Assembly (NCBI RefSeq): GCF_031455295.1
Contig: NZ_JAVDSL010000001.1
Coordinates: forward strand, 1,736,001-1,800,000
Reading direction: 5' to 3'
DNA: 64,000 nucleotides
From: Leifsonia sp. 1010
GTDB taxonomy: Bacteria; Actinomycetota; Actinomycetes; Actinomycetales; Microbacteriaceae
Below the pieces are notes generated by a model. It saw only the letters and a program-made list of their open reading frames with translations. It ran no database searches and had not been told where the DNA came from. Of the stretch, positions 1 to 58,005 are shown in pieces. The first letter of the stretch is position 1. Each line of letters begins with the position of its first letter. Position numbers and translations under genes: made by a program.

Positions 1-491
1 ACATCGACTTTGACGACCGCCTTAGGGAGGCGGTTGTCTATGGCACGAACTAGTGCGCCGACCACATCCTGCCGCGAGGGCTGACGGTGATTGTGCTGAG
101 ATCCGACCACCCGCTGCAGGTGTTTGTCGGCAAAAAAGACGTGCGGTGAAGCGTCCAGGGCGTATGTCTGTCTACCGTTCACCATGGAACTCTGGTGGAG
201 ACCCCACGAGAAGCGATCCCGCTGAATGTCGGCAACGATGCGCTGACTTGTAGCGGAGAGCGCAGCCTCGAGCACAATCTCAACATGCTGACGGGCGGCG
301 CTGAGTGCCGATTCGAGTGACGCTCGTGTATCGCGATCCGTGGCGGATGCCAAGAGGTAGTCGTTGCGTAGGGCCCGAAGCGCCTCGACAGCTTCCTTGA
401 CCTTGGGGAATGTACGTGTGAGGTCCTTTCCCTTACGAGTCTGTAGGTCCCAGACACGCCTCATATTCGTCGGCGAAAAGCTCTGGTCCAT
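1..491 (-). CDS. Reverse transcriptase (defence-type RT), N-terminal part, cut by window edge
   Basis: Reading from ATG at 491 leftward the frame stays open to base 1 (163 codons plus 2 bases), so the gene continues outside the window. The N-terminus DQSFSPTNMRRVWDL followed by RKGKDL, then a helical stretch, then NGRQTYALD (about 105-113), FFADKHLQR (about 119-127) and finally LPKAVVKVD ending at Asp163 resembles the lead-in of stand-alone bacterial reverse transcriptases of the retron/Abi/DRT type; there the last segment starts motif A with the first catalytic Asp. This match is from memory of the family, and the YxDD motif and any C-terminal domain lie outside. Codons CTA, ATA, AGA and ACA, unusual in the neighbours, suggest transfer. 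A G-run (495-499) sits only 3 bases before the ATG, so the ribosome site is weak. Subtype (retron, DRT/UG) cannot be assigned. No retron-type ncRNA was recognised upstream. Confidence 0.68.
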   Translation of the reverse strand, partial: MDQSFSPTNMRRVWDLQTRKGKDLTRTFPKVKEAVEALRALRNDYLLASATDRDTRASLESALSAARQHVEIVLEAALSATSQRIVADIQRDRFSWGLHQSSMVNGRQTYALDASPHVFFADKHLQRVVGSQHNHRQPSRQDVVGALVRAIDNRLPKAVVKVD

Positions 492-531
492 ATTCCCCCA
501 GGTCGGTCGACTCACAGCGAAATAACGATAG

Positions 532-672
532 CGCCCGACCAACCGTCGCGCTGTCCCCTTTCCATGTGACGTATGCGCTTCGAAAAAGAAAGAAGACCTG
601 AAGCAACTCAAGCGAGTGACCGCGCTGACGAAGGCTGACTTGAGCTCAGCTTACGAATCCGCCGACTTGTGA
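532..672 (+). pseudogene. Decayed 3' coding fragment, unidentified
   Basis: One frame is open from the stop at 529-531 to a TGA at 670-672 and encodes a plausible charged C-terminus containing KKKEDLKQLKRV and LTKADLSSAYES. There is no start codon in a useful place and no ribosome site, so this looks like the tail of a gene whose front has been lost. GC counted by hand on the line 541-600 is about 52%, well below most of the window. I do not recognise the family. It could also be chance. Confidence 0.3.
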
Positions 673-721
673 GCACGCTGACTAGAACCGCCGCAGGCAA
701 GCCCGAGATGTCTCGATCTAG

Positions 722-922
722 GCGGCGGACTGCATCGGTGATGCGCAGCCGCGTGGCACGCCTAGGTCGGGGGCTTTGAACGGTTCGCGCCTCTTGATTC
801 GCGCAGCACGGCTATGCAACCCGGAGGTCACCATCACGGCGCACGAGTTTCTGCATCGTCGAGGGATGCTAGTGGTCACCGATCCTGCCGCGACCGTCCC
901 CGACAAAGACGTCGGTCGATGA
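722..922 (+). pseudogene. Possible gene remnant, unidentified
   Basis: The frame is open from the TAG at 719-721 to a TGA at 920-922 (66 codons). Its second half has protein-like composition (RLCNPEVTITAHEFLHRRG, then MLVVTDPAATVPDKDVGR), while the first half looks random. No start with a ribosome site is visible. It sits in the atypical DNA next to tRNA-Ser and may be another island remnant. Family not recognised. Confidence 0.25.
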
Positions 923-951
923 CGTGCTTGGCGAGTGTCGACCCTTCACTT

Positions 952-966
952 GGGGGGGGGGGGGGG
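952..966. repeat. Homopolymer of 15 G
   Basis: Fifteen consecutive G residues, the longest mononucleotide run I see in the window, in non-coding island DNA about 100 bases from tRNA-Ser. Such tracts slip in replication and sequencing, so the exact length is uncertain. Confidence 0.9.
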
Positions 967-1063
967 CGTCACAAGGATGTGTCCAGCGCGCACAGAGGGG
1001 ACAGTCGGCTTCGTTAGAAAGCTCGACTTCCCTCGTTAGCGCGTAGATGGCACTTGCGATGGC

Positions 1064-1147
1064 GGAGAATGGGGGATTCGAACCCCCGAGGGCTTGCACC
1101 CAACACGCTTTCCAAGCGTGCGCCATAGGCCACTAGGCGAATTCTCC
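1064..1147 (-). tRNA. tRNA-Ser (anticodon GGA)
   Basis: The minus strand folds as a class II tRNA of 84 nt. The 5' acceptor GGAGAAT pairs with 3' ATTCTCC, the anticodon loop CTTGGAAAG carries GGA, there is a long variable arm as in tRNA-Ser, and the T loop reads GTTCGAATC. CCA is not encoded. The 3' end points towards the atypical DNA on the left, the usual orientation for islands integrated at a tRNA gene. Confidence 0.95.
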
Positions 1148-1246: not shown

Positions 1247-1253
1247 CGTTGTT

Positions 1254-1341
1254 GGCTCCCCACGTGGCGCCATCCAGGCCAACTCCCCCAGGGCGGAAAC
1301 GCAGCAAGGGTAACCGGGCTCTGGCGGGTGCGTGGGGAGTC
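1254..1341 (+). ncRNA. ffs: 4.5S / small SRP RNA
   Basis: RNA of the signal recognition particle, which binds Ffh and targets ribosomes to the membrane. The apical domain is unmistakable: GGCGGAAACGCAGCAAGGG carries the GGAA-type loop and the conserved asymmetric internal loop. The ends CTCCCCACG and CGTGGGGAG pair to close the rod-like hairpin. In related genomes it usually sits directly ahead of dnaX (my recollection of synteny); here 8.7 kb intervene. Confidence 0.93.
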
Positions 1342-1462
1342 TTTTCATGTCCAGCCGTGTGTCACCGCCGCCGCGTATATTGTGGCCAGCAGTCCCGGAT
1401 CTTCTACACCCCGTAGAATGATCCGTGTCTTCCGTGGAGCGATGGATGGACGGGGTGCCGCA

Positions 1463-14990: not shown

Positions 14991-15033
14991 TACGCGCGGC
15001 GAACGGGAATGGCCGCGCGACCGGCGCGGTTGA

Positions 15034-16146
<1,113 letters not shown>

Positions 16147-50942: not shown

Positions 50943-51155
50943 ATGGCGGACGAACTGAAGCATGGCGACCACGTCGAGTGGTCCTCGCACGGCGTGGATG
51001 TGCCCGGCGAGGTCGAGAAGAAGCTCACCGACGACACCGAAGCGGCCGGACGGACCGTACGGGCGTCGAAGGACGACCCGCAGTACCTCGTGAAGAGCGA
51101 CAAGACCGGCAAGGAGGCCGTGCACAAGCCCGACGCGCTGCACAAGAAGAAGTGA
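50943..51155 (+). CDS. DUF2945 small protein
   Basis: 70 residues. KHGDHVEWSSHGVDVPGEVEKKL, then DPQYLVKSDKTGKEAVHKP and a basic end match the DUF2945 (Tudor-like, hypervirulence-associated) family. Charged, soluble, no signal. Function unknown. Convergent with the anti-sigma gene; stops are 13 bases apart. Confidence 0.85.
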   Translation: MADELKHGDHVEWSSHGVDVPGEVEKKLTDDTEAAGRTVRASKDDPQYLVKSDKTGKEAVHKPDALHKKK

Positions 51156-51168
51156 CGGACGGCTCCCG

Positions 51169-52791
51169 TCAGCCGATCGACTCGATGTGATTGCGTCGGT
51201 GGCTGATGAGGTACCCGCCGTCGAAGGCCCAGGCCTCGTAGTCCTGCCGCTCCCGCGTCCAGATCAGGTCACCGGATGCCAGATCGTGAGCTGTGCCCGG
51301 CTCGGCTTCGCCATCGAAGTCATATCGGTTCGCGAGCCCGAACACCTGGTAGAACGCGCCCTGAGCCGTGACCGACGGTGCCTCCACCGGCGAGCCCGAC
51401 TCGTGGCTGACCGCGCACCTCGGTTCGGAGGACGCGAGGAGGAAGGCATCACGGCGCACGTCGAGCATCACGGGTGATGACACCGCCGTGTCCGTGAAGC
51501 ACGCAGGCGTCGGAATCGTCCACCGTTCCTCGCCGGTCGTCTGATCGATCAGCGTCAGTGTCTGGGCGCCCCGGATGAAGAATTCGCCGGTATCGACCTG
51601 TAGATAGCCGTTCACGACGCCCGGCACCGTCCCCGGGGTCGCAGCCCCGAACACTCTGGGCGAATCCGGTGCCGTCCTCGTCCAGAGCTTCCGGCCGTCT
51701 GGCCCGTACGCGATGAGCTCCACGGACGCGTCGGACGGTGATGCTGCCCACCCCAGAGTGACCTGGCTCATCGGCTGGTACAGATGAACGGTCTGGGGGA
51801 GAGGCGACGAGGCCCCCGTCTGCAGATCGACCATGGCCTGCTCGTAGTTCGATGATTCTGTGTATCCGTCCACAGTCATGCTGGAGAATCCAGGCCTGAT
51901 CGAGCCCAGGCTCGATCCTCGCATCCCGATGGATTGACTCCACTTCGGGTGAGCGAGGTCCGTCGGATCGGCTCGGCTGAGGATGTCGTCAGCCGTCGAT
52001 CGCCCATCCGCATCGCGGAAGTGTTGGACCATGATGACGTCGCCGGAGTCGTCGGGCACCGGCTGCATGTCGTGTTGAGGCATGAAGTCGTCCCAGGCGG
52101 GCTGGAAGGTGCCGACGGTTCGTCCCGTGGCGAGGTCGAGGACATCGTGCGGGCCCACTCCCGCCTCTCGTGAGGCGAGCACGGCACGTCCGGACGTCCC
52201 GAGCACGTCGAAGGCGGCCCCGAACGCCACACCGTTCGGGGTGAACTTCCACTCGCGCTGCCAGAGGATCGAACCACTCGAGGTGTCCACGAGGGTGACA
52301 CCGAAGTCCTCACCGAGGTGGTTGATGCAGTCCGAACCCTCGTACTCCTTCGGCCGCAGGCCCGAGACGTAGACCGCCCGCGAGTCGCTGAGGGTGTACG
52401 TCTGCGTGCCGGTGCAGTCCGCGTCACCCGGGAGGTCCAGCGACCAGCGCGTCGTCGCGCGGAGGCTGTCGACATCGTGGGGCATCACAGGGGACGACTG
52501 GACGAGCGGCCGGGATGTCGGCGCGGGCGTCGGGGTCGGCGTGGGCGTCGGCGTGGTCGTCTGCGTGGGCGACGGAACCGGCGCGGGTGGGGCGTCGTCG
52601 CCCCCGAGGTGGATGACGCCGGTGAGGGCGAGGGCGGCCGTCCCGCCGGCGAGCACGATGGCGACGCCGGAGAGCACGCTGGTCAGCAGGATCTGGAGGC
52701 GCCTGCGGCGGCGCGGCTCGTCGGCGACGGTGTCGATCAGCAGCTGCCGGATGGCGGCGCTGCGGTCGGGGGTGAACTCCGTGGTGCTCAT
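51169..52791 (-). CDS. Anti-sigma-like membrane protein with propeller ectodomain
   Basis: 540 residues, second gene after an ECF sigma factor with an ATGA overlap, the usual place of the anti-sigma factor. Cytoplasmic residues 1-30 (TPDRSAAIRQLLIDTVA), membrane segment about 33-57, a Pro/Thr linker (TPTPTPTPTPAPT) and a 420-residue outer part with repeated units like GSILWQREW, LIDQTTGEERWTI and DLASGDLIWTRER, typical of PQQ-like propellers. The HxxxCxxC zinc motif of classical anti-sigma factors is absent, so the inhibitory role is inferred from context. Strong ribosome site AGGAGGTG 5 bases before the ATG. Confidence 0.8.
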   Translation of the reverse strand: MSTTEFTPDRSAAIRQLLIDTVADEPRRRRRLQILLTSVLSGVAIVLAGGTAALALTGVIHLGGDDAPPAPVPSPTQTTTPTPTPTPTPAPTSRPLVQSSPVMPHDVDSLRATTRWSLDLPGDADCTGTQTYTLSDSRAVYVSGLRPKEYEGSDCINHLGEDFGVTLVDTSSGSILWQREWKFTPNGVAFGAAFDVLGTSGRAVLASREAGVGPHDVLDLATGRTVGTFQPAWDDFMPQHDMQPVPDDSGDVIMVQHFRDADGRSTADDILSRADPTDLAHPKWSQSIGMRGSSLGSIRPGFSSMTVDGYTESSNYEQAMVDLQTGASSPLPQTVHLYQPMSQVTLGWAASPSDASVELIAYGPDGRKLWTRTAPDSPRVFGAATPGTVPGVVNGYLQVDTGEFFIRGAQTLTLIDQTTGEERWTIPTPACFTDTAVSSPVMLDVRRDAFLLASSEPRCAVSHESGSPVEAPSVTAQGAFYQVFGLANRYDFDGEAEPGTAHDLASGDLIWTRERQDYEAWAFDGGYLISHRRNHIESIG

Positions 52792-53387
52792 CGTGCACCT
52801 CCTTCGAGGATCGTCGTGGTCGGTTCCGCCGCGAGCGGCGATGCGAGTTCGGTGAGGCGCTTGCGGGCGCGTGACAGGCGCGACTTCACGGTGCCCTCCG
52901 GCACGCCGAGCGCTTCCGCGGCTTGAGCGGCGGTCAGCTCTTCGAGGATGCAGAGGGTGATGACGTCCTGGTCGCGCTTGCTCAGCCGGTCGAACGCCTC
53001 CCGTACCTGACGGTCGCGCTCCGCGCCGTCGAGGGTGTCGTCGACTGCGGGCGCGTGGTCGTCCTGCGGCGCCGGTGCGGGCAGCTTCCCGAGCGCGGTG
53101 CGGTAGCGCCGCAGGCCGCGGGTGTGGTTGCGCACGGCGTAGTTGGTCGTGACGAGCAGCCAGCCGATGATGGACCCGTCGACCAGGCGGACCGACTCCC
53201 GCTTGCGCCATGCCTCCAGGAAGACCACCGCCGTCACATCCTCGGCGTCGTGCGGCTCGCGCACCAGCCTCAGTGCGTGCCCGAAGACGCGGTCGCGGTG
53301 CCGGTCGAACAGCGACGCGAAGGCGGGGCCGTCCCCGTCGCGTGCCGACGACCAGGCCGCAGCCTCGTCGAAACCATCCGTGCTCAT
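52788..53387 (-). CDS. ECF RNA polymerase sigma factor
   Basis: 199 residues. Region 2 (ASLFDRHRDRVFGHALRLV, DAEDVTAVVFLEAWRKRESVR) and region 4 (LSKRDQDVITLCILEELTAAQAAE, LGVPEGTVKSRLSRARKRL) are complete. ATG 53387 chosen with AGAGGG directly ahead; longer starts are possible. Co-expressed with the propeller membrane protein and divergent from dacB, whose expression it might control. I did not find a convincing autoregulated -35/-10 pair in the 113-base gap. Confidence 0.92.
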   Translation of the reverse strand: MSTDGFDEAAAWSSARDGDGPAFASLFDRHRDRVFGHALRLVREPHDAEDVTAVVFLEAWRKRESVRLVDGSIIGWLLVTTNYAVRNHTRGLRRYRTALGKLPAPAPQDDHAPAVDDTLDGAERDRQVREAFDRLSKRDQDVITLCILEELTAAQAAEALGVPEGTVKSRLSRARKRLTELASPLAAEPTTTILEGGAR

Positions 53388-53488
53388 ACCCTCTACTGTC
53401 CGCAGGCGCGCGGATCGTTCCCTTTTGTGCTGAGGGAATCGCCGCATCCACCGGCCGGGGGAGCGTAGCAGCATTCAGAAACCCCAGG

Positions 53489-53494
53489 TAACAT
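53489..53494 (+). promoter_or_regulatory. Leaderless -10 box of dacB
   Basis: TAACAT, six bases, then ATG 53501. No ribosome site precedes the start. Confidence 0.58.
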
Positions 53495-53500
53495 ACCCGG

Positions 53501-55108
53501 ATGCACGAATCGGATCAGCCGGTCACCGGACCCGACCCGTCGAACCTCCCGACCACTCCCACTCCGCTCGCCGACTCCTCTGCCGGCTCGGAGCCGCCCG
53601 CGACCACGGGCTCGGGTCGTCGCGCCGCCGCGCGGCCCGCGCAGTCCGCCGGCCTCGCGGGTGTCGCGGCCGGGGTGCTCGCAACGATCCGGAAGCACCC
53701 GAAGACGTGGATGGCCGCAGCCGCCGCCGTCGTCTTCCTGCTGCTCGGGACCGGGAGCGTCGCCCTCGGGGCCACCGTCGGTTCCCCGGCGGCGGCAGCG
53801 GGTCCGATCAGCAGCGCGACCCCATCGCCGACGCAGACCGCGACCGCCACCCCGACTCCCACGCCGACCGTCGACCCGGCGCGTCCCGTCCCGGCGAACC
53901 AGGCGGCGGCGACGCGCGTCCGCACCTGTTCCGTCGCCGGCCTCGCTGCCGACGGCCGCCTCGGAAACCTCGAGGCGCAGGTCGTCAACGCCAAGACGGG
54001 TCAGACCCTGTTCGACCGCAACGGCGTGAAGCCCGGTCCGACCGCCTCGGTTCTGAAGACGCTCACCTCGGCTGCGGCACTCGCGACCCTGGGCCCGGAC
54101 TACCGCGTCTCCACGACGGTCGTGGCCGGCAGCACGCCCGGCCAGGTCGTCATCGTCGGCGGCGGAGACGTGACCCTCTCGCGGCTGCCCGACGGCCAGG
54201 CATCCTTCTACACCGGAGCGCCGAAGATCCAGGACCTCGCCAACCAGGTCAAGCAGGCCATGGGCGGCCAGCAGATCACCTCGATCGTGGTGGACGCATC
54301 CCTCTTCGGGGCCCCGTTCTGGCAGCCGAGCTGGGATGAGCGCGAGGAGCGGGTCGTCGAGGGTTCGACCCCGTACATGACCGCGCTCATGGTCGACGGC
54401 GACCGTGACGACCCGACCGCCGTCGAGTCACCGCGCAGCACCGATCCGGTGGGTCGTGCCGTGCAGTACTTCCAGCAGTACCTCGGCACCAACGTCGGCG
54501 TGAGCCAGGGAGTCGCGCCTGCCGGCGCTCGCCAGCTGGGCGTCGTCCAGTCGCAGCCGGTCACGACACTGATCGATCAGGCGATGCGGGTCTCCGACAA
54601 CACGATCATGGAGGAGCTCGCCCGCCTCGTCGCCATCAAGAACGGCGCGGGCAACACCTTCGACGCCCTGAACGCCGGTGTGCTCGCCGGGCTGAAGGGA
54701 TACGGGATCGACACCGCGGGCATCCACATCGCCGACGGCTCCGGCCTCAGCGGCGACAACGCCGTTCCGCCGTCGTATCTGACGCAGCTGTTCATCAAGG
54801 TGCTCAACCGCCAGAACGGCCTCGGCGTGGTGTACGACGGGCTGCCCGTGGCCGGCCAGTCGGGAACGCTCGGCCCGGGCTACAACCGGTTCACCGGCGC
54901 GAACTCCGTCGCCCGAGGCGCGGTGTTCGCCAAGACCGGCTGGATCGACAACGGATACACGCTCTCCGGCATCATCAACGCGGCCGACGGCACGCCTCTG
55001 ACGTTCGCCGTCTTCGCTCTCGGACCGGTGAGCGACAACGCGAAGCAGGCGATCGACACGCTCGTCACCGGCTTCTACAAGTGCGGCGACAACCTCTCCA
55101 ACGGCTGA
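53501..55108 (+). CDS. dacB: D-alanyl-D-alanine carboxypeptidase/endopeptidase (PBP4, S13)
   Basis: 535 residues. Cytoplasmic Pro/Ser-rich N-terminus, one membrane segment (about 70-92), a Thr/Pro linker, then peptidase S13: nucleophile Ser183 in TASVLKTLTS, SDNTIMEEL as SxN motif, and AKTGWIDN as KTG motif; VIVGGGDVTLSR and HIADGSGLSGDN are also typical. Trims peptidoglycan outside the membrane. In other actinobacteria it is often followed by tilS-hpt; here pncA follows. Confidence 0.94.
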   Translation: MHESDQPVTGPDPSNLPTTPTPLADSSAGSEPPATTGSGRRAAARPAQSAGLAGVAAGVLATIRKHPKTWMAAAAAVVFLLLGTGSVALGATVGSPAAAAGPISSATPSPTQTATATPTPTPTVDPARPVPANQAAATRVRTCSVAGLAADGRLGNLEAQVVNAKTGQTLFDRNGVKPGPTASVLKTLTSAAALATLGPDYRVSTTVVAGSTPGQVVIVGGGDVTLSRLPDGQASFYTGAPKIQDLANQVKQAMGGQQITSIVVDASLFGAPFWQPSWDEREERVVEGSTPYMTALMVDGDRDDPTAVESPRSTDPVGRAVQYFQQYLGTNVGVSQGVAPAGARQLGVVQSQPVTTLIDQAMRVSDNTIMEELARLVAIKNGAGNTFDALNAGVLAGLKGYGIDTAGIHIADGSGLSGDNAVPPSYLTQLFIKVLNRQNGLGVVYDGLPVAGQSGTLGPGYNRFTGANSVARGAVFAKTGWIDNGYTLSGIINAADGTPLTFAVFALGPVSDNAKQAIDTLVTGFYKCGDNLSNG

Positions 55109-55148
55109 GCCGGCCGGCGCAGCGACGACCATCACCGGGAGGACGGGA

Positions 55149-55724
55149 ATGGGCAAGGCGCTCTTCATCGTGGACGTGCAGAACGACTTCACCGAGGGAG
55201 GCGCGCTCGGTGTCGAGGGAGGAGCCGCTGTAGCGGCGGGCGTCACCGCCTTCCTCCGGGAGCATGCCGACGACTACGAGGTGATCGTCGCGAGCCGTGA
55301 CTGGCATGACGCCGACAATGACAACGGCGGCCATTTCGCGACGGACGACGAACCGGATTTCGTGGAGAGCTGGCCGCGGCACTGCGTCGCTGGTTCCCCC
55401 GGTGCAGAGTATCACCCGGCGTTCGACACCTCGCGTGTGACGTTCCACGTTCACAAGGGCCAGGGCGTGCCGGCGTACTCGCTGTTCGAGGGCCGGACGG
55501 AGGCGGGCGCCACCGTGCACGAGATCCTCGAGGAGCGGGGCATCCACACCATCGACGTGGCGGGGATCGCGACCGACTACTGCGTTCGCGCGTCCGCTCT
55601 GGATGCTCTCGCCCACGGCCAGCACGTCCGCGTGCTGACCTCTTTGATCGCCGGGGTGGCCGAGACGTCGTCCCAGGCGGCGCTCGCGGAGCTGGCGCAC
55701 GCAGGGGCGGAACTGGTGGACTGA
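55149..55724 (+). CDS. pncA: Nicotinamidase (isochorismatase family)
   Basis: Nicotinamide to nicotinic acid in NAD salvage. 191 residues. Catalytic Asp9 in LFIVDVQNDFTEGG, metal region ASRDWHDADND with following His, Lys in FHVHKGQG, and nucleophile Cys145 in GIATDYCVRASAL. Ribosome site GGGAGGA about 7 bases ahead. Stands 40 bases after dacB. Confidence 0.92.
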   Translation: MGKALFIVDVQNDFTEGGALGVEGGAAVAAGVTAFLREHADDYEVIVASRDWHDADNDNGGHFATDDEPDFVESWPRHCVAGSPGAEYHPAFDTSRVTFHVHKGQGVPAYSLFEGRTEAGATVHEILEERGIHTIDVAGIATDYCVRASALDALAHGQHVRVLTSLIAGVAETSSQAALAELAHAGAELVD

Positions 55725-55771
55725 TCCCGCGAGCTTCCGCGTGGACGCTCAGAGGCATCCAGGGTAGGGTG

Positions 55772-55792
55772 ATTGCTAGCTCATCTAGTAAT
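55772..55792. promoter_or_regulatory. Inverted repeat at the MMPL promoter
   Basis: ATTGCTAG (55772-55779), 5 bases, CTAGTAAT (55785-55792): an 8-bp dyad with one mismatch, AT-rich and directly before the ribosome site. This has the form of a MarR/TetR-type operator. No MarR gene is adjacent. Confidence 0.5.
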
Positions 55793-55803
55793 CAGGAGGC
55801 GAA

Positions 55804-58005
55804 GTGTCGAAGGAAGCTCCGGAGCGGACCACGGAGGCCCGCGTGCCGGCCCGCTGGCTGCGCATCGTCGTGCCGACCGTGCTGGTGCTCGTCTGGCTGG
55901 TCCTCGCCGGTATCGGAGGACCGACCTTCGGCAAGCTGTCCGGTGTCTCGAGCAACGACCAGGCGGCATTCCTTCCGGCCAGCGCGGAGTCGACCGAGGT
56001 CCAGGAGTGGCAGAAGCGGTTCACCGACTCCGGCTCCATCCCCGCGATCGTGGTGGTCGAGGCCGACGAGAGCATCCCGAAGAGCGAGCTGGGCACGACG
56101 TATGCCGACCTCGGCGAGAAGCTCGGCGAGGTCGATGGAGTGGAGCCTGCGCCCGAGGGACAGTCCACGAGCGTCGCGGGACCCATCCCCTCGGAGGACG
56201 GGCTCGCCGTCGAGTACATCGTCCCGATCTCCGACTCCGATGAGCTGAAGTCGGTCGTCGCGGACCTCCGCGCGGTCGCCGATGACGCCGTGCCCGAGGG
56301 TGCGCAGGTGTGGGTCACGGGTCCGGCCGGCCTCACCGCGGATCTGGTGAACGCGTTCGGAGGCATCGACGGCATCCTGCTGCTGGTCGCCGTCGCAGCG
56401 GTCTTCGTCATCCTCCTGCTGGTCTACCGGGCCCTGCTCCTGCCCTTCCTGGTGCTGCTGACCTCGGTCTTCGCCCTGTGCGCGGCGATCCTGATCGTCT
56501 ACCTGTTCGCCCTCTGGGGGTGGATCAAGCTGTCCGGCCAGAGCCAGGGCATCCTGTCGATCCTCGTCATCGGCGCAGCGACCGACTACTCGCTGCTTCT
56601 CGTCTCGCGCTACCGGGAGGCGCTCGAGGTCGAAGAGTCGCGATGGGTGGCCATCCTGCGCGCCTGGAAGGCGTCGTTCGAGCCGATCGTCGCCTCCGGC
56701 GCGACCGTGATCCTGGCCCTGCTGTGCCTGCTGTTCTCCGACCTGAACTCGAACAAGAGCCTCGGGCCGATCGCGGCGATCGGCATCGTGTTCTCCCTGT
56801 TCTCGGCTCTCACCTTCCTCCCCGCGCTTCTCGCTGTGTTCGGGCGCGCGTCGTTCTGGCCGTTCCGGCCGGTCGTCGGCGGCCACGCGCACAAGCACGT
56901 CGAAGGCACCACACTGACGGGTCTCGAAGGCGTTCGCGGGGTCTGGCGGCGCGTCGGGGGCCTGATCGCCCGACGCCCGCGCGTGACCTGGATCGTGTCG
57001 TTCGTCCTGCTCGTGGCCTGCGCGCTGGGGCTTACGCAGCTGAAGGCGAACGGCGTGCAGCAGACCGACGTCATCCTCTCGCAGTCCGACGCCGTCGACG
57101 GGCAGGCCGTGGTCGCCAAGCACTTCGACGCGGGTTCCGGCTCGCCGGTGCTCATCGTCGCGCCGGAGAGCGAAGCGGATGCCGTGCTCACCGCGACCGA
57201 GAAGACGGACGGCATCGCCTCCGCCGCCTTCTACACAGGAGGAGGCCGGCCGCAGGCAGGAGTACCGGCCGATCCCGTTGTGAAAGACGGCCACGTCCTC
57301 ATCCAGGCCACCCTCGCCTCCGAGCCCGACTCCGCCGAAGCCGAAGACGTCGTGAAGGGGCTCCGCGACTCGCTCTCCAGCGACGGTTCGGTGCTGGTCG
57401 GCGGAGTGACGGCCATCGCGCTCGACACCAACGAGACGGCGCAGAGCGACCTGATCAAGATCATCCCGATCGTGCTCGCGGTGATCCTGCTCATCCTGAT
57501 GCTGCTGCTCCGGTCGATCGTCGCGCCGGTGATCCTGATCGGCAGCGTCGTGCTGTCGTACGCGGCCGCGCTCGGCGTCTCGGCGCTCGTCTTCAACCAC
57601 GTCTTCGGGTTCCCGGGGGCGGATGCGGCGGTGCCGTTGTTCGGGTTCGTGTTCCTTGTGGCGCTCGGCGTCGACTACAACATCTTCCTGATGACCCGGG
57701 TGAGGGAGGAGTCGCTGCGCATCGGAACCCGGCCCGGGATCCTGCGCGGTCTGGGACTGACCGGCAGCGTGATCACGTCGGCCGGCATCGTGCTGGCAGC
57801 GACGTTCGCCGCACTCGCGGTCATCCCGATCCTGTTCCTCGTGCAGATCGCGTTCATCGTCGCCTTCGGTGTGCTCCTCGACACCGTCGTGGTGCGCTCC
57901 CTGCTGGTCCCCGCGGTGTCGTACGACATCGGCCGCGCCATCTGGTGGCCGTCGAAGCTGTCGCGTAGCAAGATGCATAGCGACAGGGCCGAAGTCTCGT
58001 CCTGA
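55804..58005 (+). CDS. MMPL family RND transporter
   Basis: 733 residues, about 12 membrane segments in two halves (first at 22-44, six from about 193-350, one at 395-415, five from about 555-710), each half with an outer domain. Motifs GAATDYSLLLVSRYREAL and LGVDYNIFLMTRVREES carry the acidic residues for proton transfer. Exports lipids or drugs in relatives; substrate unknown here. GTG start with AGGAGG 4 bases ahead. Confidence 0.93.
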   Translation: MSKEAPERTTEARVPARWLRIVVPTVLVLVWLVLAGIGGPTFGKLSGVSSNDQAAFLPASAESTEVQEWQKRFTDSGSIPAIVVVEADESIPKSELGTTYADLGEKLGEVDGVEPAPEGQSTSVAGPIPSEDGLAVEYIVPISDSDELKSVVADLRAVADDAVPEGAQVWVTGPAGLTADLVNAFGGIDGILLLVAVAAVFVILLLVYRALLLPFLVLLTSVFALCAAILIVYLFALWGWIKLSGQSQGILSILVIGAATDYSLLLVSRYREALEVEESRWVAILRAWKASFEPIVASGATVILALLCLLFSDLNSNKSLGPIAAIGIVFSLFSALTFLPALLAVFGRASFWPFRPVVGGHAHKHVEGTTLTGLEGVRGVWRRVGGLIARRPRVTWIVSFVLLVACALGLTQLKANGVQQTDVILSQSDAVDGQAVVAKHFDAGSGSPVLIVAPESEADAVLTATEKTDGIASAAFYTGGGRPQAGVPADPVVKDGHVLIQATLASEPDSAEAEDVVKGLRDSLSSDGSVLVGGVTAIALDTNETAQSDLIKIIPIVLAVILLILMLLLRSIVAPVILIGSVVLSYAAALGVSALVFNHVFGFPGADAAVPLFGFVFLVALGVDYNIFLMTRVREESLRIGTRPGILRGLGLTGSVITSAGIVLAATFAALAVIPILFLVQIAFIVAFGVLLDTVVVRSLLVPAVSYDIGRAIWWPSKLSRSKMHSDRAEVSS

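Follow-up and report, generated by a model that had tools for sequence, protein, structure and literature searches.

DRT3 is a known anti-phage system in which two adjacent reverse transcriptases (RTs), Drt3a and Drt3b, work with a noncoding RNA (ncRNA) encoded downstream. According to PMC13174585, Drt3a copies the 5'-ACACAC-3' loop of the ncRNA into poly(dTdG). Drt3b makes poly(dCdA) without any nucleic-acid template by means of E22, R241, and R71, and is primed on Y666. The same paper describes E. coli without RecBCD as unable to maintain DRT3 and the RecBCD inhibitor Gam as the trigger. The paper of Deng et al. 2026 is discussed in PMC13314766.

In the window, the whole 64,000-nucleotide stretch of DNA that was analysed (G000:C1:1736001-1800000), the gene at the left edge is the first half of a DRT3 system. 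A minus-strand ATG at window 491-489 starts a frame of 163 codons that reaches base 3. Its last codon encodes the first catalytic Asp, residue 163 (VDVERFY, motif A), exactly at the window end. The initial annotation had taken this frame for the beginning of an RT, and the extended contig bears it out. In L002, a 20 kb stretch of the same genome that includes the left edge (window base 1 is L002 18001, and window coordinates are L002 coordinates minus 18000), the frame runs on to 441 codons (P0001) with YVDD from residue 244, and neither a stop nor an unrelated domain lies past base 1. The left-edge observation is settled by the extended contig. The list of open reading frames gives a longer version starting from a TTG at 611; with numbering from the ATG at 491, the NCBIfam match begins at residue 1. 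The leftward extension also holds the partner gene that had been sought there: a second RT gene, drt3b, overlaps drt3a by 8 bp on the same strand, and its product (P0002) carries YVDD as well, so that both RTs have the catalytic YxDD. The RT at the edge, first described as stand-alone, is one half of a two-RT system. The features of the locus are collected below.

Features of the DRT3 locus, its predicted RNA and the candidate host nuclease
Feature	Coordinates	Strand	Remark
drt3a, codons 1-163	window 1..491	minus	part of the Drt3a gene inside the window
drt3a, whole gene	L002 18491..17166 (to window -834, beyond the edge)	minus	441 aa
drt3b	L002 17173..15119 (window -827 to -2881), beyond the left edge	minus	684 aa
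Predicted DRT3 ncRNA region	L002 about 15118..15006, beyond the left edge	minus	motif and pairing
ACACAC	L002 15084..15079	minus	34 nt after the drt3b stop
P0, GCGC	L002 15113-15110 with 15076-15073	minus	pairing
Possible P1	L002 15109-15104 with 15062-15057	minus	pairing
P2 hairpin	L002 15101-15096 with 15091-15086	minus	pairing
P3 hairpin	L002 15043-15035 with 15016-15008	minus	pairing
Stretch from drt3a to tRNA-Ser	window 492..1059		unlike the five sister genomes compared; no assigned gene
tRNA-Ser(GGA)	window 1060..1147	minus	the variable site has its right border at the tRNA 3' end, base 1060
AdnB/AdnA-like helicase-nuclease genes	L201 1071-7627 (G000:C2 about 51070-57626)		

All profile searches lead to RTs. 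P0001 matches Pfam RVT_1 with 44.3 bits (E 2.1e-11) and NCBIfam Drt3a with 267.8 bits (cut-off 200), and P0002 reaches 531.6 bits for Drt3b (cut-off 350). The first choices of PADLOC are Drt3a (275.9 bits) and Drt3b (565.3 bits), and among PDB sequences the two proteins are best matched by the chains of Drt3a and Drt3b in 9z6y. The curated cut-off thus places the RT in a defence-associated family, as had been surmised, with the defence role itself following from homology, and the supposedly poorly described group already has a name, DRT3. The gene could in principle belong to a retron, a group II intron or another stand-alone RT, as the group II RT model TIGR04416 (56.2 bits) and the retron St85 model NF038233 (26.3 bits) both match weakly. 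However, these scores fall far below the cut-offs of 300 and 235 (a single retron model in the latter case), whereas both Drt3 scores exceed theirs. In addition, the two RT genes overlap. Drt3a is an RT of the UG3 type and Drt3b one of the UG8 type, and about 97% of UG3 RTs adjoin a UG8 RT (PMC8934634). The probability of such an identity is therefore negligible. By homology, we consider it very probable that this is a complete-looking DRT3 anti-phage locus, composed of drt3a, drt3b, and a downstream ncRNA, whose RTs and RNA would work as in E. coli.

The residues that stand in for a template in the described Drt3b have counterparts here. Via PDB chain 26cz_A, E24, R110, and R280 of the window Drt3b correspond to E22, R71, and R241; they were counted by hand with a tag offset of 108. 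Lengths of 775 and 667 gave this offset, and with it all three positions fall on conserved residues (E, R, and R). In an alignment of the C-termini, the terminal tyrosine Y684 matches Y666. Homologues were drawn from plasmids, genomes, and viral contigs. The genome relatives are the best 80 of 477, ranked by likeness to the window's Drt3b, and long forms of Drt3a are over-represented because of this ranking. Viral contigs contributed 32 more homologues, and 9 phage records matched, but in none did any place span 80% of the query, and none was used. From 130 loci scanned, 115 with one intact Drt3b frame were kept, and 15 (L012, L013, L014, L114, L122, L123, L125-L133) were dropped for a low score or a partial or split frame. 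L022 duplicates L004, with identical downstream sequence, which leaves 114 distinct loci. In L014, L114, L122, and L123 (one E. coli plasmid and three viral contigs), drt3b lies in two frames, either as natural broken copies or through sequencing errors.

Across the 115 loci, the catalytic D, the YxDD, and a tyrosine among the last six residues are present in every Drt3b. The E22 site holds E in 109 loci and D in 6, and the R71 site holds R in 114 and N in 1. The R241 site is R in 115/115, a count biased because one of the two search patterns in each scan contains that arginine; E22 is in none of the patterns. Drt3a lies directly upstream of Drt3b in 106/115 loci, and no Drt3a was obtained in the other 9, five of which have <1 kb of upstream sequence.

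Past drt3b, the sequence of the window locus reads CTGTCA-CTTA-TGACAG-C-ACACAC-CAGCGC. The ACACAC beside the hairpin is the predicted RNA template expected of DRT3. The initial annotation had proposed looking for a conserved ncRNA 5' of the edge gene; the conserved RNA element lies instead 3' of drt3b. In 114/114 distinct loci, the 300 nt past drt3b contain an ACACAC or CACACA hexamer, as exact ACACAC in 111, and the motif was used neither in locus selection nor in any search pattern. In Markov-shuffled controls, ACACAC appears in 8.7 loci on average and in 17 at most, and the antisense GTGTGT occurs in 3 loci. The AC-repeat hexamer is found in 3/110 loci at 300-600 nt downstream and in 2/107 at 600-900 nt, and it is present in 9/114 in the last 300 nt of drt3b, in 8/114 in mid-drt3b, and in 9/93 upstream of drt3a. 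This element just past drt3b, in all loci counted, provides a simple rule for finding DRT3 RNAs.

No other repeat unit replaces the AC repeat in any locus, and this includes the six whose E22 site is occupied by D. A recoded template was considered and rejected: these six E22-to-D loci keep ACACAC, and L010, L062, and L081, which have no exact ACACAC, carry CACACA. In L062 and L081 (Schmidhempelia and Gilliamella), the element CTCACACATCAGCGC contains CACACA rather than ACACAC, a slightly shifted template. Between drt3a and tRNA-Ser, the window has 15 consecutive G on the + strand (952-966), a run that is long for chance and possibly slippage-prone. The idea of this run as a homopolymer template was set aside because the tract is 5' of drt3a, away from the place of the conserved element.

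The surroundings of the template are paired. Stem coordinates were derived from offsets, and pairing was analysed in the 85 loci without short-form Drt3a whose template lies <60 nt from the stop. In these loci, the nucleotides that immediately follow the stop form pairs with those immediately past the template. This stem, P0, varies in sequence (GGCGCT/AGCGCC, GATGC/GCATC, CTTCGC/GCGAAG, ATTATGC/GCATAGT), and its score is at least 11 in 78/85 loci compared with 61% of swapped partners. The 79 distinct pairs have a mean of 14.51, which 0/5000 permutations match (mean 11.86, maximum 13.44; relatedness ignored), and the 31 pairs without GCGC likewise give 0/5000 with relatedness ignored. The P2 hairpin directly 5' of the template scores at least 11 in 74/85 loci compared with 22.8% of shuffles. 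Both P0 and P2 are supported by these comparisons. In the window, P0 consists of only four pairs, palindromic GCGC/GCGC. The RNA stretch of the window folds better than its shuffles (z -3.63, 0/200 as low), and its unconstrained minimum-energy fold holds P1 and P2, not P0.

The third stem, P1 (CCAGGC with GCCTGG), would cross P0. Across the 85 long-form loci, the resulting pseudoknot is unsupported, with a mean of 10.99 compared with 10.33 for swapped partners and scores of at least 12 in 27/85 loci compared with 33.6% of swaps. Within six actinobacterial loci, P1 has 6 pairs with 88.9% of cells paired and 2 pairs changed on both sides; its covariation score there is reached by 18/500 shuffles, with L026 out of register. 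A pseudoknot is therefore possible in the close actinobacterial group. A simple search for single strong stems did not set most loci apart from shuffles: those above the shuffled 95th percentile for P2, P1, and P3 number 2, 1, and 5 of 12 actinobacterial loci, 1, 8, and 45 of the 83 other long-form loci, and 5, 14, and 2 of 19 short-form loci. Rfam at E 1 returns only tRNA, SRP RNA, and one weak sub-threshold match on the opposite strand of the tRNA.

The long helical stretch of the edge protein, which the initial annotation regarded as an insert of its own, is the N-terminal region of a long-form Drt3a. Form length was taken as the number of residues between window Drt3a positions 10 and 95. 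In this window-biased sample, 84 of the 105 distinct loci with Drt3a hold 72-99 residues there, 19 hold 36-42, and two (L040 and L076) are in neither class. EcoDRT3a, with a length of 398 aa (PMC13174585), presumably belongs to the short class, and residue 49 of the 9z6y Drt3a aligns with window residue 95, as expected of a short form. In the Drt3b tree, one branch of 21 rows (SH-like 100) comprises all 19 short forms plus two loci without Drt3a, so that there is essentially one split between long and short. The template follows drt3b at 101-261 nt (median 149) in short-form loci and at 24-78 nt (median 40) in long-form loci, with L059 at 140 nt as the exception, and these distances of about 150 and 40 nt suggest two architectures. 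L059 (Parapedobacter), the sole long-form locus with a distant template, is also on a long branch of the tree. In predicted folds, short-form loci average 3.4 hairpins on the 5' side of the template and long-form loci 1.1, in part because the 5' stretch of the former is longer.

According to the AlphaFold model of the long-form Drt3a of Glycomyces fuscus (L024; mean pLDDT 88.8), this N-terminal region contains helices at residues 9-21, 31-52, and 58-94. The best fold match of the model is a different DRT type, DRT9 (the SenDRT9 RT-ncRNA complex, PDB 9nlx and others), at 16-17% identity and a TM-score of about 0.5; the 9z6y Drt3a is not among the 50 fold matches listed (library to April 2026). 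The long-form helices might replace an RNA domain. We tentatively propose, as a possible though rather doubtful account, that the two DRT3 architectures exchange protein for RNA. In one, the architecture studied so far, a short Drt3a would go with a ncRNA whose 5' domain is extended. The other would combine a long Drt3a, its helices standing in for that domain, with a compact RNA that has a small P0/P2 module, including the template, right after drt3b and perhaps, in the actinobacterial group, a pseudoknot; AdnAB would be watched instead of RecBCD in actinobacteria that lack RecC, and the AC/GT unit would stay constant. Whether a protein domain can substitute for an RNA domain could be tested on the long/short split.

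The DRT3 genes occupy a variable site that ends at tRNA-Ser. Both the neighbouring tRNA and the lower-GC DNA noted at the outset are found, with a GC content of 0.53-0.59 over the two RT genes compared with 0.66-0.72 in the left flank (500-base windows). Likeness to sister genomes ends on the left at L002 14875-14886 (three genomes) and resumes on the right at L002 19059 or 19060, the 3' end of tRNA-Ser (five genomes); between the borders, the sequence is unlike that of the three sister genomes in which both were compared. At up to 3 mismatches, no second copy of the tRNA-Ser 3' end that could serve as an attachment repeat is present in L002, L003, or the window. Two sister genomes carry extra 27-28-base copies of this end at the same site (L195 4110-4137 and 4181-4207; L197 5950-5977), and other sisters have further short copies. 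Such copies are what repeated integration would leave, and they fit a site that is used repeatedly. On the opposite strand, tRNA-Ser adjoins a bacterial small SRP RNA (window 1251-1347, + strand, 63.8 bits in Rfam). A position in a variable site and absence from the other same-genus genomes sampled would also fit a decayed or silent copy remaining in an integration site, but both frames are full length and intact with all catalytic residues present, and the ACACAC element is retained. We regard such decay as very unlikely and an intact DRT3 locus as the better reading.

DRT3 is rare around this host. With its own genome counted each time, it is present in 3/149 relatives, in 1/396 genomes of a phylum sample, and in 9/396 of an order sample, 5 of the last above the cut-off; it was not found in the other sampled genomes of the genus. 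On the Drt3b tree (FastTree, with some long branches flagged), the 12 Actinomycetota rows lie on one side of a branch with an SH-like value of 99, and the rows nearest to the window are Microbacterium, G038, Glycomyces, Cellulosimicrobium, and Curtobacterium. Homologues from Acidobacteriota, Nitrospirota, Verrucomicrobiota, and Margulisiibacteriota (L071, L087, L099, L100) are dispersed among rows of Pseudomonadota and Bacteroidota, a pattern suggestive of inter-phylum transfer. The word fragment 'actino' is absent from the main text of PMC13174585 and of PMC13314766, and neither actinobacterial DRT3 nor two RNA layouts were seen in the literature searched, a search with subscription journals, supplements, and most preprints outside its scope.

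The host also differs from E. coli in its nucleases. RecC (PF04257) has no match in this genome, and among 14 control genomes E. coli alone matches. The genome does have an adjacent gene pair in which UvrD helicase and PDDEXK domains are encoded (with an assumed start for the second gene). Its best PDB matches are 7sjr, 9np6, 6ppj, 6ppr, and 6ppu, and the three 6pp entries we take to be mycobacterial AdnAB. No NCBIfam equivalog scores above its cut-off for either protein. This AdnAB-like pair is likely the end-processing nuclease of the host. Since only this pair and no RecC was found, the RecBCD control of E. coli cannot apply unchanged, and the AdnAB-like enzyme would more likely be the controlling nuclease. 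The missing RecC, the deep actinobacterial clade, and a Drt3a of the long rather than the studied short form, together with the compact RNA, might also indicate a locus that is DRT3 by descent and works differently, with another product or with control by something other than an end-processing nuclease. However, the AC repeat in all 114 distinct loci, with no other repeat unit seen, and the conservation of the R241 site (again biased by one search pattern) and of the E22 site argue against a changed mode of action, which we consider unlikely. A host without detectable RecC, part of the E. coli control enzyme, makes the control of DRT3 outside E. coli a direct question, as the whole DRT3 kit including its RNA template is found here in a deep actinobacterial lineage.

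If the locus works like its E. coli relative, Drt3a would bind the ncRNA and repeatedly copy its ACACAC loop to give poly(dTdG). Drt3b would use its C-terminal Y684 as primer and make poly(dCdA), with E24 and R280 replacing a template. At this locus, Drt3a with the RNA should thus yield the one strand and Drt3b the other. The two would anneal into repetitive double-stranded DNA, which a host nuclease may hold low until a phage disables that nuclease, leading to a growth stop. The two genes, their conserved residues, the ACACAC element with its paired surroundings, and the variable site at tRNA-Ser are directly seen, and by analogy expression, DNA products, defence, and a trigger would be expected.

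The closest relatives share much of this layout. The loci of Microbacterium paraoxydans, G038 (same family), Glycomyces fuscus, and Cellulosimicrobium marinum (L023, L004, L024, L025) are long-form DRT3 loci that form one Drt3b clade with the window (5 rows, SH-like 99; best segment identity 52-56%). They have ACACAC and similar flanking pairs, and differ from the window in RNA stem sequence and Drt3b sequence. EcoDRT3 and the window locus share a Drt3a-family RT next to a Drt3b-family RT, an ACACAC element downstream of drt3b, and counterparts of E22, R71, R241, and Y666. Unlike EcoDRT3a at 398 aa, the window's Drt3a has 441 aa with a longer N-terminal region, and EcoDRT3 is under the control of RecBCD (PMC13174585), whereas RecC was not found in the window's genome. 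In addition, the template is 34 nt past drt3b in the window and 101-261 nt in short-Drt3a loci. In form and host, this DRT3 locus is laid out differently from the best-studied one. The long form and the actinobacterial host leave the kind of system unchanged, a member of the known DRT3 that could be recognised from 163 codons.
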